In this document: positions 13,238 through 56,645 of the stretch, in pieces | How the letters are laid out: every line of letters starts with the position of its first letter | How positions within the stretch are numbered: position 1 is the stretch's first letter | Assembly (NCBI RefSeq): GCF_000424545.1 | Contig: NZ_AUKC01000003.1 | Coordinates: 62,001-126,000 of the forward strand | Reading direction: 5' to 3' | DNA from: Butyrivibrio sp. NC3005 | GTDB lineage: Bacteria > Bacillota > Clostridia > Lachnospirales > Lachnospiraceae | DNA length: 64,000 nucleotides | The notes under the pieces: generated by a model | What the model saw: the letters and a program-made list of their open reading frames with translations, nothing else | The model's database searches: none | Told to the model about the DNA's origin: nothing | Translations under genes and position numbers: made by a program

Positions 13238-13266
13238 ACTTTATCATACAAGCTTTTTATCTTCAA
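13238..13266 (-). promoter_or_regulatory. Putative malQ promoter
   Basis: On the minus strand TTGAAG (13266-13261) and TAAAGT (13243-13238) are separated by 17 bases. The -35 overlaps the end of the upstream glycosyltransferase gene. Confidence 0.5.
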
Positions 13267-14447
13267 GAATTATTCGCATTTAATATAAATGGCAATAGAT
13301 TTCTGTAATCAAAATACCTGCAGGCCTTTGTCTGTCCGTTTAAAGCTATTTGTTTTCTTTCATCCTCATGATTAAGATAATATTCAATAAGCTCACCAAT
13401 TTCTTCCGGAGTATGCGCAACAACAAGGTCTTGTCCATCCACAAAATAATCATCAAGTTCTTCTTGCCAGGTCGTTACAAGGAATCCTCCAGCGCCTAGA
13501 ACATCCATTATTCTTAGTGACAATCCTGTCCTTATAGAACGCATAGAAAGATTTAAATTTATTTTACTGGTGCAAAAAACATGTGGCATTTTCACCATAT
13601 AATCAGCTTGTCCTAAGTCATATACATGTTCAAGGGTGGGGCCTTTTGCTTTGGTATACATATCTACTTTGAATCTTTGACCAAGATCTTCCAATATCAT
13701 TTTTCGTTCATCTTTAGTACATTTCTTTTTTAAAATATCTCTTATCAAAGTATCTCTATCAAAATTATAATTACCACCAAGCTCAAAGCGCATGTATTTT
13801 GCCATCTGATTAATGATGTCTTTTGATAAAACCTGCTCATTTCCTATAAAATCCACATCGTAGGTATGCCTTTGCATGGCAATTGTTCCTTCTATAATTC
13901 CTTTTAATTCATCCGGCATATGACTTGCTGCAAAATCATAAAAATTGAATTCATTATCATATAAATTTCCTAGAAAAGTCACATCATGCTCATATACAAT
14001 CCCGCCGTCAAATAATTTATCTGAAATATCTTTCAGCCTTTTAGCGTTTATTCCTAGTGGAGAATAGTGTATTGTTTTTATATTCTTTGCCATATACTCT
14101 TTGCATAGATCTTTGTCAAAAAGCCATATACTATTTTCATTATTTTCAACCTCTTTTGAAGCCAACGGGAAATGAGGTGAATCAAAAACCCATGAAACAT
14201 ATCTGACTTTCTGTCGATGACAGACTCTTGATATTATTGGAAAAAAATTCCAGGTAAAAACAAGATCTATTTTTTTGCCGTTTTTCTTGGTTAATATGGC
14301 AGCTTCAAGCGCATTTTCGAAATTCTCATCTTCGTCAAGTTTGTTCCAGGGACAACGAAACTCTATTACATCTTCTCCGAGTTCACGCAAGACCATTCTG
14401 CAGTCTTCTCCTGTAAACTCATTCCATACATAGTATAGTATTTGCAT
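13263..14447 (-). CDS. CgeB-like glycosyltransferase (DUF3880 plus GT1-like domain)
   Basis: About 394 residues. The N-terminal half (VFTWNFFPIISRVCHRQKVRYVSWVFDSPHFP) matches the DUF3880 domain and the C-terminal half (LGAGGFLVTTWQEELDDYFVDGQDLV, then an ARYFDYR-like end) matches the C-terminal domain of CgeB/spore-maturation glycosyltransferases. These transfer a sugar from a nucleotide donor to a surface protein or glycan; substrate unknown. Start at MQILYY because AGAAGG lies five bases upstream. It is the last minus-strand gene before the large non-coding gap and is followed by malQ. Confidence 0.8.
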   Translation of the reverse strand: MQILYYVWNEFTGEDCRMVLRELGEDVIEFRCPWNKLDEDENFENALEAAILTKKNGKKIDLVFTWNFFPIISRVCHRQKVRYVSWVFDSPHFPLASKEVENNENSIWLFDKDLCKEYMAKNIKTIHYSPLGINAKRLKDISDKLFDGGIVYEHDVTFLGNLYDNEFNFYDFAASHMPDELKGIIEGTIAMQRHTYDVDFIGNEQVLSKDIINQMAKYMRFELGGNYNFDRDTLIRDILKKKCTKDERKMILEDLGQRFKVDMYTKAKGPTLEHVYDLGQADYMVKMPHVFCTSKINLNLSMRSIRTGLSLRIMDVLGAGGFLVTTWQEELDDYFVDGQDLVVAHTPEEIGELIEYYLNHEDERKQIALNGQTKACRYFDYRNLLPFILNANNS

Positions 14448-14487
14448 ATTCACCTTCTATTTCAAAAGTTACATAATACATTTTAGG

Positions 14488-14543
14488 GTTCTGTATAGTC
14501 CATTTTGTTGTTTGCATATCTCATCGCAGATATGCTTTAATTG
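14488..14543. repeat. Degenerate fragment of repeat family B
   Basis: The segment from TGTATAGTCC to CGCAGATATGCTTTAATTG aligns with the left half of the B repeats (TATATAGTCC ... CGCAGACACGCTTTCGCTTG) with several substitutions. No matching right half follows, so it is a relic. Confidence 0.6.
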
Positions 14544-14899
14544 AGTGTTTTATCACAGTTCATAAAAATGGTTTTCTTTGCTTTTTATTACATTATCTGT
14601 AATATTCTTTGCGTTTTCACTCTGCTTTCGCATGATAAACTGATATCATATCACATATCTTGTGTTTTTGCGTTTATATATGTTACAAAAAAGCGTTTTG
14701 TTTTCGCTTTTTTTCGTCTTTATGATATCATTTTTTTGTATACGTTTTTTCATAATATTATTATATCAAATGCAGATAAATTGCATACCTTTTTTATTGT
14801 ATTATCTTAGTTCGATAATATGTTATCTTTTTTTCGTGTGTAAGATATGACGTTTCGTCGAGTTTTCAACATTTTTTATATGGTTGTGATAACATATCA

Positions 14900-15555
14900 T
14901 TTGTCGCGCGGAGCTGCGATATCAAAAGAGTTTATGAATTAAGCCTAGCATTCCTAAGCTATTTTGATTATTTTCGACAGGATGTCGAAATAGCAGGATG
15001 CTGCAGACAAGGATGTTTACGATATTATGCTTGATTCATAATACCAAACGAAAAATGGATGTTTCGTTAACTGTTAGTCTTATCCAAAAACATACTAACT
15101 ATTCGTGGCTTGTTACTATGTTTTTGTCTTAGATTTTTTTAAAATCTTTGAAGGATAAACCTCTACACATCTGGAATGGATTCCGGAAATGGCTTTTTTA
15201 AAAAGGATTTTAGAAAGTCAAGACATCTTGCCGAGATTTCGGACTATCCTCAGCAAGAGTCTAAACACATGGATGTAATAAAAAGATCACAGGAATTAGT
15301 TTTAACTACCCTCCTCGTGCATAAGCACACGCCTTGTATAATCAGCTGTTACAGCAGCTCATTCTATGGCAATAAAGCAAATTCCTGTTAAAAGACATCA
15401 TAGATTGGATACTTTGATCAGAAATGGTCGGTGGTCATCGACACATGCACGAGTTCTATTTTCGTGAAGGGGTAAAAACCTTTCTATGATGTTGGTTTTT
15501 TTATAAAAATTATCGTTTCAGACAATCCTAGCCGTTTGAAGCGATAATTTTTTTT
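14900..15555 (+). ncRNA. Candidate large structured non-coding RNA (about 650 nt), family not identified
   Basis: No convincing gene exists between 14448 and 15557. Instead there is a chain of hairpins. Perfect stems: 14972-14979 with 14983-14990 (8 bp, loop GGA); 15023-15029 with 15037-15043 (7 bp); 15047-15053 with 15062-15068 (7 bp); 15131-15137 with 15141-15147 (7 bp). The hairpin 15085-15126 has 10 bp, one C-C mismatch and 4 more bp. TCTGGAA/TTCCGGA at 15170-15187 needs a U-G pair. A long-range 9 bp stem joins 15289-15297 to 15380-15388 and encloses two smaller hairpins. A 10 bp stem joins 15395-15404 to 15483-15492 and encloses GTCG/CGAC and CACGA/TCGTG. The wobble pairs work only if the plus strand is the RNA, and a strong plus-strand terminator ends the region. 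A weak promoter (TTTCAA, 17 bases, TGATAA, at 14864-14892) could start it. Size is in the range of OLE, ROOL and GOLLD RNAs, but I cannot assign it. The 5' boundary is approximate. Confidence 0.6.
15509..15555 (+). terminator. Strong terminator of the candidate RNA
   Basis: Fifteen paired positions (15509-15523 with 15534-15548), two of them U-G or G-U on the plus strand, then eight T. On the minus strand those two become A-C mismatches, though a TTTTTA run on that side may also help end the gene whose stop is at 15558. Confidence 0.85.
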
Positions 15556-15557
15556 GA

Positions 15558-17246
15558 TTAATTTTCAAAGCATTTGGATAGAGCAGCAAGAACAGCTCCC
15601 TGTCCCCATGGATAACTACTATATATTTGTCTATACACGCCTAAGTCCTCACATGGACCTAGCGCATCTGTTACATGTCCGTCTTGATTAATTAGCTTAA
15701 AAAGACCTGTTGCTCCAAGAAGTATTCTTTCTTCTAATAATTCTTTTGAAAGCATATCACCTTCAATGAACTTTGAAGCTTTTTTTATACTATAGATTAT
15801 CATTCCAGAAGCAGAACTATCTATTCTACTTCTATTACCTGGCATTACCCATGAAAAGAGTCCATCATTTCTTTGAGATTCAAGGACTTTGCAGGTCAAT
15901 TTTCTCATCCATTTCAAAAGTTCTTCATAACCTTCAAAATCTTTTGGAATATCAACTAAGCACTCAGAAATCCCAAGCATCAGCCATCCTATAGCACGTC
16001 CCCATCCCAGAATTCCAATAGTCTGAGGATACAACCTGTTATTATCTTCATCATGATTACTTTCTGTTTCCATAAAACTGTAACCATGATAAGGAAGCTT
16101 TGTTGCTTCTTCCGTTGAATACTTTTTAAAATTAAGAAGATTTGCCAAAGCAATATTATAAGCTTTTTTGCTGTCAAAACTGTATTTATTTAAGGCGTTA
16201 TCTTCTTTTTTATCTAATTCTTTTTTATTCTCTATTTTTTCAAGTACTTTTCCAAATGCAGCAAAGAACATCGAAACCATTCCTACTCCGTCAGCAAGAA
16301 CATAATCATCTACGCCTTTAACATTATAGATTACAGAACCTTTTTTGTCTTTTTTTGCATTTTCCAAAAAAAACGCAAGTTTTTCTGCATGCTTTAGATA
16401 TGCTATATCACCTGTTTTTTCAAACATTCTAAGAAAAGTAACACCAAAAAGAGCATCATCTACGTGCTCAAACTCTTTATTTTGCTTTTCCCAATAGGAT
16501 ATATATTCTCGTGACAAATCAAGAGACTGTTCTATAGAAGTATCCTCTGTCAGTCCCAGTAAAAGCATTCCTGCCGGCCAAAACAGAAGGTCTTTTGACA
16601 AACCTCCTCTTCCTATAGCTTTTTTTACACCTGACTTAACTTTATCTTTTAAATCAGGATGCTTAATCTTTTCCAGCATAGAAAATGATGCTTCACACAA
16701 TTTACTAACCACATCACTTGGATTCATCTCAAGACTATACATCTGTTTTACGCATCCGTCAGTACATACTATATCTTCTATTTTGCCAGTTATTCTTAAA
16801 CCGCCTCTAGTAGCGCTTTTAACAGAAGTAATATTGTCATCGAAAATTTTGGCCCTAGAAAAAGGCATATGATACTTCAAAAAGACATAACTGTTTGCAA
16901 GAAAGGTTACATTTTGTCCTATTCCCTTTCCTCTTTCAAGGCTTTCTCCGATAAACAGCCCATATTCTCTGCTGTTATCTTCATCAAGAGGGTTAAACAC
17001 TGCACATCCAACTTCCCTATCTTGCCCACTAGAATCATTTTTTACGCATATGATAAACATATGCATAATTCCTGTTTCTATTTTCTCTTTGAAAAACTTC
17101 TGCTCCTGTTCTAAAGTAAGAAGTTCACGATAGATGTAATGTTTTCTTACATCTTCACTGTTTCTCCATTTTATTATTTTGGCACAGTCTTCATATCTTG
17201 CTTCTCTAAGACCGACTACATCATTCTCGATTACATATTTTTTCAT
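15558..17246 (-). CDS. Fusion: GNAT acetyltransferase plus GH105-like (YteR-type) glycoside hydrolase
   Basis: A 562-residue two-domain protein. Residues about 1-165 look like a RimJ/RimL-type GNAT: LREARYEDCAKIIKWRNSEDV at the start and ESLERGKGIGQNVT in the acetyl-CoA loop. Residues about 190-560 resemble the alpha/alpha-barrel of unsaturated rhamnogalacturonyl hydrolases: YVLADGVGMVSMFFAAFG, HGYSFMETE, LGWGRAIGWLMLGI and QRNDGLFSW. GH105 enzymes hydrate terminal 4,5-unsaturated uronic sugars. There is no signal peptide or membrane segment, so it acts in the cytoplasm. The start codon overlaps the upstream kinase-uridylyltransferase stop (ATGA). Possible role: turnover or modification of an acidic sugar in the glycan pathway (inference). 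The alternative is a GH88/GH105 relative with another substrate. Confidence 0.7.
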   Translation of the reverse strand: MKKYVIENDVVGLREARYEDCAKIIKWRNSEDVRKHYIYRELLTLEQEQKFFKEKIETGIMHMFIICVKNDSSGQDREVGCAVFNPLDEDNSREYGLFIGESLERGKGIGQNVTFLANSYVFLKYHMPFSRAKIFDDNITSVKSATRGGLRITGKIEDIVCTDGCVKQMYSLEMNPSDVVSKLCEASFSMLEKIKHPDLKDKVKSGVKKAIGRGGLSKDLLFWPAGMLLLGLTEDTSIEQSLDLSREYISYWEKQNKEFEHVDDALFGVTFLRMFEKTGDIAYLKHAEKLAFFLENAKKDKKGSVIYNVKGVDDYVLADGVGMVSMFFAAFGKVLEKIENKKELDKKEDNALNKYSFDSKKAYNIALANLLNFKKYSTEEATKLPYHGYSFMETESNHDEDNNRLYPQTIGILGWGRAIGWLMLGISECLVDIPKDFEGYEELLKWMRKLTCKVLESQRNDGLFSWVMPGNRSRIDSSASGMIIYSIKKASKFIEGDMLSKELLEERILLGATGLFKLINQDGHVTDALGPCEDLGVYRQIYSSYPWGQGAVLAALSKCFEN

Positions 17247-19219: not shown

Positions 19220-20209
19220 TCATCCCTTATAGTGTCTTTCATAAGGCTGCCAGGTTCTCTCACTAATTATATACCTTGGTCTATGCTTGGATTCCATATA
19301 TATCTTTCCTACATAAGTTCCGATTACGCCTATCGAGATAAGCTGTATTCCACCAAGAAAGCATATGATACAGATAAGTGATGCCCAGCCCGGTGCACCT
19401 AGACTAAGTACAGATACTATAATAGCCCAAATAATGCCAATAAATCCTACTGCTGATACGAACATACCAAATGTGGTAATAATAGAAATAGGTTTAACTG
19501 ACAATGAGGTAATTCCATCAAATGCCAAATGGAGCATCTTTGACAACGGGTAATGAGATTCTCCTGCCATACGCTCATGACGCTCATAATACACTTTAGA
19601 ACTCTTAAATCCTACTAGAGGCACCATTCCACGAAGATAGATATTTACTTCATGAAATGAAGCAAACTCATTTAAAACTCTAGAACTGATAAGTCTGTAA
19701 TCAGCATGGTTGTAAACTACCTCTGCACCCATTGAATTAAGAAGTTTATAAAATGATTCAGCTGTAAAACGCTTAAAAAATGTATCAGTTGTTCTGCTTG
19801 ATCGAACTCCATATACCACTTCGGCGCCATCTAGGTATTCATCGACCATTTTGTCCATAGCAGTTATGTCATCCTGACCATCACAATCTATTGATATGGT
19901 AATATCACAAACATCCCTTGCTTCCATTAAACCTGCCAAAACAGCATTCTGATGGCCTCTATTTCTACTTTGTGACATTCCTATAAAATGTGGGTTTTCT
20001 TTGGATAATTTCTGTATTATTTCCCAGGTTTTATCCTTAGAACCATCATTTACAAATAAAATTTTACTTTTATCAGAAATCTTACCATTTGCGGTTAATG
20101 TATTAATTCTATCAAGAAAAAGCGGTGCTGTAACAGGCAGAACTTCTTCCTCGTTATAACATGGGATAACTATCCACAGTATTGGCTTTCCAGTATTCTC
20201 AGTTTGCAT
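19220..20209 (-). CDS. Polyprenyl-phosphate sugar transferase, GT2 (DPM1/GtrB-like)
   Basis: About 329 residues. The GT2 catalytic domain has WIVIPCYNEEE, LFVNDGSKDKTW and the metal-binding region SIDCDGQDD; RNRGHQNAVLAG is typical of GtrB/CsbB-like enzymes. Two C-terminal membrane segments follow, then a short basic tail (ESKHRPRY). Such proteins move a hexose from UDP-sugar to undecaprenyl phosphate on the inner face of the membrane; the lipid-linked sugar is then used by GT-C enzymes outside. I start at MQTENTG because AGGGGG lies six bases upstream of that ATG. It is first in the operon with the two fusion genes. Confidence 0.85.
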   Translation of the reverse strand: MQTENTGKPILWIVIPCYNEEEVLPVTAPLFLDRINTLTANGKISDKSKILFVNDGSKDKTWEIIQKLSKENPHFIGMSQSRNRGHQNAVLAGLMEARDVCDITISIDCDGQDDITAMDKMVDEYLDGAEVVYGVRSSRTTDTFFKRFTAESFYKLLNSMGAEVVYNHADYRLISSRVLNEFASFHEVNIYLRGMVPLVGFKSSKVYYERHERMAGESHYPLSKMLHLAFDGITSLSVKPISIITTFGMFVSAVGFIGIIWAIIVSVLSLGAPGWASLICIICFLGGIQLISIGVIGTYVGKIYMESKHRPRYIISERTWQPYERHYKG

Positions 20210-20240
20210 TTCTACCCCCTTTTTTCTTTGCATAAAAGAT

Positions 20241-20380
20241 AATTTTTGTCACTGCGTTCCAAAAACCATGCAAACTGGCCATTTTAAAAGGCTTCCCCTT
20301 GGACCAGTTTGCCACTTGACTTTTGTTCTCACGAAACTCGCAGTAAATGCGAGTTTCTGAATATAAGTGACAAGATGTCA
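20241..20380. repeat. Repeat family A, copy 1 of a tandem pair
   Basis: About 140 bp between ends ATTTTTGTCACT and AAGTGACAAGATGTCA. Inside are two hairpins: GCAAACTGG/CCAGTTTGC with a nested AAGGC-AAGGGGAA-type tip (here CTTCCCCTTGG, disturbed) and GAAACTCGCA/TGCGAGTTTC. The outer ends TTGTCACT/AGTGACAA pair too, so the whole unit can fold as a Y. Confidence 0.9.
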
Positions 20381-20522
20381 TAGATTTTTGTCACTGCGTT
20401 CCAAAAACCATGCAAACTGGCCATTTTAAAAGGCTTCGCCTTGGACCAGTTTGCCGCTTGACTTTTGTTCTCACGAAACTCGCAGTAAATGCGAGTTTCT
20501 GAATATAAGTGACAAGAAGTCA
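20381..20522. repeat. Repeat family A, copy 2 of a tandem pair
   Basis: Directly abuts the previous copy in the same orientation and is nearly identical, with an intact inner hairpin AAGGC-TTC-GCCTT. The pair lies between a GT2 gene and the FAD oxidoreductase gene. Confidence 0.9.
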
Positions 20523-20627
20523 TTCTTAATTCTCAAAAAACTCTAAACAATAACTAAGAGCCTGTAGTTAAAAAAATACAGACTCTTATATAATAAGTTT
20601 TATAGTTAATGTTGTCTAGTACTGCTA

Positions 20628-22640: not shown

Positions 22641-22839
22641 ATACTTTATTGTTTCTATATAGTCCGTTTTACTGTTTGTATATTTCGTCGCAGACACGCT
22701 TTCGCTTGATTATAAACGTAGTGGTACGTAATGCGCTAAAAAACAGCGCATAAGTACCAACGTTTATAAACAGTTCTGCTCATGAAATATTACAAGCCAG
22801 TAAAACTAATCTACTATGTATTCAAAACAATAAAGTATA
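22640..22839. repeat. Repeat family B copy (long imperfect hairpin)
   Basis: About 200 bp with terminal inverted repeats ATACTTTATTGTTT and AAACAATAAAGTAT. Inner pairings: CCGTTTTACTG with CCAGTAAAACT, TATTTCGTCGCAGA with TTCTGCTCATGAAATA, TTATAAACGTAGTGGTAC with GTACCAACGTTTATAA, and a central ATGCGC/GCGCAT loop. The element can fold along almost its full length. Confidence 0.9.
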
Positions 22840-30688: not shown

Positions 30689-30706
30689 ATATAAGTGACA
30701 AAAACC

Positions 30707-30992
30707 TATACTTTATTGTTTCTATATAGTCCGTTTTACTGTTTGTATATTTCGTCGCAGACACGCTTTCGCTTGATTATAAACGTAGTGGTACGTAATG
30801 CGCTAAAAAACAGCGCATAAGTAAATGCGGCATAATTTAAACACTTTTAAATTATGTCGTCTGCCGTAGGCAGATTTAAAGGCATTATTTATGCCTTTAA
30901 ACCCCAGATCAACGTTTATAAACAGTTCTGCTCATGAAATATTACAAGCCAGTAAAACTAATCTACTAAATATTCAAAACAATAACCTATAA
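30707..30992. repeat. Repeat family B copy carrying an internal insertion
   Basis: Same ends and inner pairings as the other B copies, but 86 bases longer because of an insertion near the tip. An A-repeat end (ATAAGTGACAAAAACC) precedes it and a full A repeat follows. Confidence 0.9.
30824..30909. repeat. Insertion of three small hairpins inside a B repeat
   Basis: Compared with the copies at 22640 and 56447, 86 extra bases lie between CATAAGTA and the CAACGTTTATAA arm. They hold CATAATTTAAA/TTTAAATTATG-type, TCTGCC/GGCAGA and TAAAGGCAT/ATGCCTTTA hairpins. Confidence 0.8.
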
Positions 30993-43376: not shown

Positions 43377-43550
43377 TAGATTAGTTTTACTGGCTTGTAA
43401 TATTTCATGAGCAGAACTGTTTATAAACGTTGGTTCTTATGCGCTGTTTTTTAGCGCATTACGAACCACTACGTTTATAATCAAGCGAAAGCGTGTCTGC
43501 GACGAAATATACAAACAGTAAAACGGACTATATAAAAACAATAAAGTATA
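43377..43550. repeat. Repeat family B copy, left end truncated, inverted orientation
   Basis: Runs from TAGATTAGTTTTACTGG through the central GCGCTGTTTTTTAGCGC hairpin to AACAATAAAGTATA. About 25 bases of the outer end are missing where it meets the truncated A repeat. Confidence 0.88.
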
Positions 43551-43692
43551 GATTTTTGTCACTACGTTCCAAAAACTACGCAAACTGGCCATTTGAAAAG
43601 GCTTCGCCTTGGACCAGTTTGCCACTTGACTTTTGTTCTCACGAAACTCGCAGTAAATGCGAGTTTCTGATTATAAGTGACAAGAAGTCATA
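43551..43692. repeat. Repeat family A copy
   Basis: Full copy with both hairpins. It is followed by a second, 16-base A end (TTTTTTGTCACTTCGT) that overlaps the 3' end of the next minus-strand gene. Confidence 0.9.
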
Positions 43693-56446: not shown

Positions 56447-56645
56447 TATACTTTATTGTTTCTATATAGTCCGTTTTACTGTTTGTATATTTCGTCGCAG
56501 ACACGCTTTCGCTTGATTATAAACGTAGTGGTACGTAATGCGCTAAAAAACAGCGCATAAGTACCAACGTTTATAAACAGTTCTGCTCATGAAATATTAC
56601 AAGCCAGTAAAACTAATCTACTAAGTATTTAAAACAATAAAGTAT
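56447..56645. repeat. Repeat family B copy
   Basis: Full copy with terminal inverted repeats TATACTTTATTGTTT and AAACAATAAAGTAT and all internal pairings. It is followed without gap by an A repeat. Confidence 0.9.

Follow-up and report, generated by a model that had tools for sequence, protein, structure and literature searches.

A candidate CsrB-like RNA in the FliW-bearing bacterium Butyrivibrio sp. NC3005

Control of CsrA has been described through decoy RNAs in Gammaproteobacteria and through the protein FliW elsewhere. The CsrA consensus obtained by SELEX, as given in a 2020 review, is RUACARGGAUGU, and its GGA lies in most cases within a hairpin loop (PMC7652899). In a second paper, FliW is reported to be strongly anti-correlated with BarA-UvrY, the activator of CsrB/C, and species with FliW are suggested to rely on it instead (PMC4682653). 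The 2020 review further cites a proposal that FliW works by allostery, at a distance from the RNA pocket, so that an RNA and a protein antagonist could work jointly; whether FliW and sRNAs do so in any species is described there as still to be determined (PMC7652899). In Campylobacter jejuni, the flaA mRNA titrates CsrA jointly with FliW, as the candidate RNA described below would do; however, flaA is an mRNA and itself a CsrA target, whereas ours is a candidate non-coding RNA, and C. jejuni is said to be without antagonising sRNAs (PMC4894983). Predicted RsmA-regulating sRNAs in Gram-positives, for example in Oceanobacillus iheyensis, are likewise computationally proposed CsrA-binding sRNAs, likened to ours by description and differing in organism; according to that 2017 paper, validation of such an sRNA was still lacking for Gram-positives (PMC5568370). 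None of the open-licence PMC papers among the matches listed dealt with a CsrA sponge RNA from Butyrivibrio or Lachnospiraceae.

The window, that is, the whole 64,000-nt stretch of Butyrivibrio sp. NC3005 DNA that was analysed, holds a gap of 1104 nt between two minus-strand genes, a glycosyltransferase gene on the left (DUF3880 and Glyco_trans_1_2, 13263-14453) and a GNAT/GH88 gene on the right (15558-17246); the last 677 bases of this gap, read on the plus strand (14880-15556), make up the candidate RNA. The protein downstream of it has matches of 35-46% in 33 other genomes of the genus. An AT-rich stretch (14454-14880) extends from the divergent glycosyltransferase gene to the RNA and is, from its sequence and a promoter scan, the presumed promoter region. 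Within 14454-14880 the scan yielded no convincing promoter for the candidate, and from 14478 to 15518 it listed no sigma-70-like site on the plus strand; the position of the 5′ end is accordingly uncertain, at about 14880-14905. In line with a first-pass annotation of this DNA, which had seen no credible gene in the gap, the sole open reading frame (ORF) of at least 50 aa within 14880-15556 is a 71-aa frame with an ATG start (15176-15391), for which a Pfam search returned no match.

Folding of 14880-15556 gave -194.6 kcal/mol for the plus strand, against a shuffle mean of -148.6 (sd 6.1; z -7.51), and -169.4 kcal/mol for the minus strand (z -6.33), with 0 of 20 shuffles equal in either case. 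Both strands fold better than chance, as with inverted repeats, and the plus strand is ahead by about 25 kcal/mol. Its best fold contains 27 helices of at least 4 bp, with G-U accounting for 25 of 235 pairs, two of them inside the terminator stem, confirming the strong folding that had been claimed at first pass; a claimed 9-bp long-range stem is also exact in its pairing (15289-15297 with 15380-15388, ACAGGAATT/AATTCCTGT). This stem is contained in a GGA-poor, structured 3′ domain (15278-15504), which in the best fold has an 11-bp outer stem besides. The plus strand then ends in a terminator-like stem and T-run (15505-15554), as had been described, except that the best fold gives the stem 19 bp (15505-15523 with 15534-15552) rather than 15. 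The stem (15505-15552) is missing from the list of a simple terminator scan because its 10-nt loop exceeds the limit of 8 set in that scan. It also folds on the minus strand, with mismatches; bidirectional use is therefore possible, and the stem may serve both directions. Sequence and predicted folding together speak for a large, structured RNA on the plus strand that would have a terminator of its own.

The first-pass annotation had compared this RNA with the OLE, ROOL and GOLLD classes while recognising none of them. With Rfam covariance models, no family reached gathering score anywhere in the window, and OLE, ROOL, GOLLD and raiA were all absent from the eight matches that 14454-15600 gave at a limit of E 10; the likeness to OLE, ROOL and GOLLD is thus not supported. 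The eight matches themselves (ctRNA_pND324, CRISPR-DR24, miRNAs, U4 and others) were far below gathering scores and were rejected. CsrB/RsmB (RF00018), too, failed to reach its gathering score in the window and did not appear in 14454-15600 at the E 10 limit. A tRNA or tmRNA identity was discarded as well, ARAGORN finding 0 genes in the window, in agreement with the earlier statement that tmRNA signatures are absent. Rather than to OLE, ROOL or GOLLD, the loops point to a design like that of CsrB.

The telling feature of the locus, missed at first pass, is a CsrA/RsmA code that recurs along the plus strand, with GGA set in hairpin loops within A(N)GGAU; these repeats include CAGGATG twice, CAAGGATG and CATGGATG. 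CA(N)GGATG occurs four times on the plus strand versus 0.08 expected, a count reached by 0 of 1000 dinucleotide shuffles, and 0 times on the minus strand. For A(N)GGAT, 11 overlapping matches correspond to 8 distinct sites, versus 1.8 in shuffles (0 of 1000 reach this; minus strand 1), and GGA alone is moderately enriched (14 versus 8.7; 10 of 1000 shuffles). GGA-loop hairpins were defined as those with GGA wholly in a loop of 4-9 nt and at least 4 uninterrupted closing pairs, at most one of them G-U. By this measure, simple hairpin loops can accommodate 10 of the 14 GGA; shuffles average 2.45, with 0 of 500 as high as 10, and the minus strand of this stretch has 2. Some of these hairpins are mutually exclusive or compete with longer helices. 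The probability of being unpaired in the full fold is at least 0.8 for 7 of the 14, 0.15 or less for 6 and 0.48 for one.

These signals are concentrated in a sponge-like domain on the plus strand (14905-15275), which holds 12 GGA, including 9 that can sit in a simple hairpin loop, and all four CA(N)GGATG, with 0 of 300 shuffles reaching either count; the remainder (15276-15556) has one GGA-loop hairpin, the chance level. At the 5′ end, a hairpin with a GCGGAGCU loop (14902-14921) leaves its GGA unpaired (0.99). Two hairpins have their GGA paired in the best full fold, namely TTTCGAC-AGGAT-GTCGAAA (14972-14990; 0.10 unpaired), which costs 3.5 kcal/mol to force within its domain, and TAGC-AGGAT-GCTG (14991-15003; 0.00). 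The GGA is largely unpaired in AGACA-AGGA-TGTTT, which includes ACAAGGATGT (15005-15018; 0.82), in AACGAAA-AATGGATG-TTTCGTT (15047-15068; 0.98), in the loop of TCTGGAA-TGGA-TTCCGGA (15170-15187; 1.00) and in TTTTTAAAA-AGGA-TTTTAGAAA (15195-15216; 0.95), as it is at a ACATGGATGT site that is unpaired in the best fold (15267-15276; 0.85). Stems vary between the hairpins, and the GGA loop recurs.

A motif scan across named genomes, which gave at least 120 stretches, 120 of which were screened, supplied the CsrB loci for comparison. Fifteen scan loci were submitted to Rfam (14 by motif richness, plus L153), and since 6 of the 15 proved to be CsrB, with 9 left without a match, the motif grammar finds real Csr RNAs. 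The six Rfam-matched CsrBs (L109, Citrobacter sedlakii; L128, Citrobacter youngae; L117, Erwinia persicina; L155, Aeromonas veronii; L182; L200) have 10-13 GGA-loop hairpins in 294-360 nt, versus 9 in the core of our candidate (14905-15275, 371 nt), and a GGA density per 100 nt of 5.8-7.8 versus 3.2. The candidate resembles CsrB/RsmB of Gammaproteobacteria in its CAGGAUG-type repeats, in the similar number of GGA loops and in being a putative stand-alone gene with a terminator-like stem at its end; in contrast, it lacks a match to the Rfam model, is AT-rich, larger and less dense in GGA, and carries an additional GGA-poor 3′ domain, and its host has FliW. Four other scan loci, L137 (Shewanella salipaludis), L114 (Arsukibacterium tuosuense), L113 (Marinobacterium rhizophilum) and L189, show 9-18 GGA-loop hairpins without an Rfam CsrB match and are perhaps unannotated Csr RNAs.

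Elsewhere in the window, CA(N)GGATG reaches at most 2 per 620 nt, and the plus strand at most 6 GGA-loop hairpins per 620 nt. GGA-rich minus-strand stretches near 13531, 28138 and 37212 reach 10-11 per 620 nt, so the GGA-loop count alone is not diagnostic. Per base, in a comparison of 38 strand-stretches from the window and an ad hoc set of own-genome loci, minus strand 1761-2135 has 1.07 GGA-loop hairpins per 100 nt versus 0.91 in the whole 1104-nt gap, and both this stretch and the plus strand of L234 are also above the whole gap in A(N)GGAT; the GGA sites of 1761-2135 fall within a 62-codon reading frame. Three close AGGAT motifs occur at 32 distinct places in the own genome (34 matches, two overlapping pairs merged), and 30 of the 31 places other than the candidate lie in stop-free frames of at least 109 aa, the exception (L243) being near a contig end. 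Among the 32, the candidate RNA leads in GGA-loop hairpins (9, next 8) and in CA(N)GGATG (4, next 3), and one coding place exceeds it in A(N)GGAT (12 versus 11). TTACAGGATGTAA is present twice in the genome, each time within a long open frame.

The genome encodes one csrA (PF02599), directly after fliW, with a flagellin-family gene (C6:64063) upstream of fliW-csrA on the same contig; residues 1-62 of the CsrA protein align with a solved CsrA chain. Across the genus, csrA is present in 73 of 79 genomes and in all 47 of good quality. The leader of the best-scoring flagellin gene (L213) combines a TGGAA-AGGA-TTCCG hairpin, of the type seen in the candidate, with an ACGGAT site and an AAGGAGG ribosome-binding site, a plan resembling that of B. 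subtilis hag, in which the ribosome-binding site is overlapped by one of the two sites for CsrA (PMC7652899). The upstream stretches of four further flagellin-family genes were read and are without this combination, two having no GGA hairpin (L215, L216) and two having two each in other arrangements (L214, L219).

The intergenic region itself, which the first-pass annotation had suggested looking for in related genomes, did not turn up there: searches by DNA similarity through 61 relatives, 79 genomes of the genus and 397 of the family (own genome included each time) gave no homologue of the candidate. Its non-self DNA matches span about 22-48 nt, and phage records gave no match. Of the matched loci, L004, L005 and L010-L013 were read, ORFs were listed for L005 and L006, and motifs were counted in L002, L003, L008 and L009. 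In a motif search of the genus, the matches listed are mostly coding-like by eye; a separate motif search matched 25 of the 397 family genomes (own included) versus 2 hits for a backward control, and the locus in G458 was examined.

Several repeats were seen along the way. A long palindromic intergenic element is present in two copies in a family relative, G459 (L012 1400-1700 and L013 1-260), and holds TTTCGACAGGATGTCGAAATA, a hairpin also present at window 14972. The window has copies of an intergenic repeat family at 14466-14538, 22641-22702, 30693-30769, 43488-43563 and 56447-56509, with another at L005 1677-1754, and L005 1258-1760 resembles several repeat cassettes in series. ORFs at window 20199-20381 and 20329-20523 and at L005 1233-1418 have translations that all start with the MTSCHLYSETRIYCEF peptide, and are probably a dispersed repeat rather than genes.

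Relatives of the host, mostly of the same genus, carry a different element with similar loops. The pattern ACAGGATGT..ACA(N)GGATGT is found in 8 of 79 genus genomes, 25 times in G061, 26 in G062 and 25 in G102, and once each in the own genome (at the candidate RNA locus), G070, G071, G013 and G090. A two-hairpin element of about 57 nt is dispersed in G061, G062 and G102 (for example, L254, L256 and L257), sometimes in tandem with steps of about 58 nt, and has a few copies in G070, G218 and G458 (sequence same as L153, Lachnospiraceae bacterium XBB2008). A profile of the element gave 82 hits in the loci searched, of which 51 distinct near-complete copies were left once duplicates and any copy with over 6 gaps had been set aside. 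Across this set, 962 of 995 cells pair in register, versus 546/1003, 273/1002, 286/941 and 332/888 when slid by -2, -1, +1 and +2, and 13 of 20 stem pairs have changed on both sides. The first loop reads AGGAT in 49 copies and AGGAC in 2, and the other ATGGAT in 41, AGGGAT in 5, ACGGAT in 3, and AAGGAT and AGGAAT in one each; since GGATGT was part of the seeds, some of the constancy of GGA is built in, which does not apply to the stem covariation outside the seed. CsrA is tolerant at the free N of ANGGAU. The element is possibly a distributed CsrA decoy: like the candidate RNA, it sets AGGAT and ANGGAT loops on changing stems, but unlike it, it is about 57 nt long, exists in dozens of copies and is not homologous by its model, the profile finding no copy in the window or the own-genome loci searched. 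Among the matches listed from open-licence PMC papers, none was a paper on this element.

From its composition, loop placement, strand asymmetry, terminator-like end and csrA-fliW neighbourhood, we consider it likely that the candidate is a CsrB-like RNA sequestering CsrA, with an extra 3′ domain, in a FliW host. The large size, the GGA-poor 3′ domain with its 11-bp outer and 9-bp stems, the several GGA buried in the fold and the lack of an Rfam match would also suit a structured RNA of an undescribed class, in which the 3′ domain does the main work and CsrA binding is incidental or only stability-related; this is an unlikely reading, leaving the repeated CA(N)GGATG and their loop placement unexplained.

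It is more doubtful still that genomic palindromic repeats have simply piled up here, in a repeat cluster or decayed region with no RNA function. Dispersed intergenic repeats do exist, 14466-14538 having four further matches within the window and a fifth in L005, the hairpin at 15222-15261 resembles one in L005, and relatives carry dispersed GGA-loop elements. However, besides the L005-like hairpin, the sole own-genome match of the candidate is one of about 40 nt at 81%, located in a gene (L006); neither the window nor the own-genome loci searched hold a copy by the model of the relatives' element, and the stems differ among hairpins in which the GGA loop recurs. As for a short coding gene at 15176-15391 with structured flanks, to which we give hardly any credence, the 71-aa ORF does have an ATG, but it is Pfam-negative, crosses several stems and shows by eye no ribosome-binding site upstream.

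As a CsrA-sequestering RNA, the candidate would be transcribed from about 14880-14905, and CsrA dimers would bind several of its loops; when abundant, it would titrate CsrA and free CsrA-repressed mRNAs such as flagellin, acting alongside FliW, the protein antagonist of CsrA. Two folds compete at sites 14980 and 14996, so CsrA may also alter the fold. The GGA-poor 3′ domain is probably there for stability or for some other partner.

More tentatively, and with rather more doubt than confidence, the genus may have an RNA arm of CsrA control beside FliW, comprising a large sponge here and a dispersed two-hairpin sponge in G061, G062 and G102, decoys of different form invented by separate lineages. 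CsrA sponge RNAs are already known; what would be new, if the sponge reading is true, is the FliW-bearing host, and a sponge RNA in a bacterium with fliW-csrA would then offer a concrete locus for the question of whether FliW and sRNAs act together.
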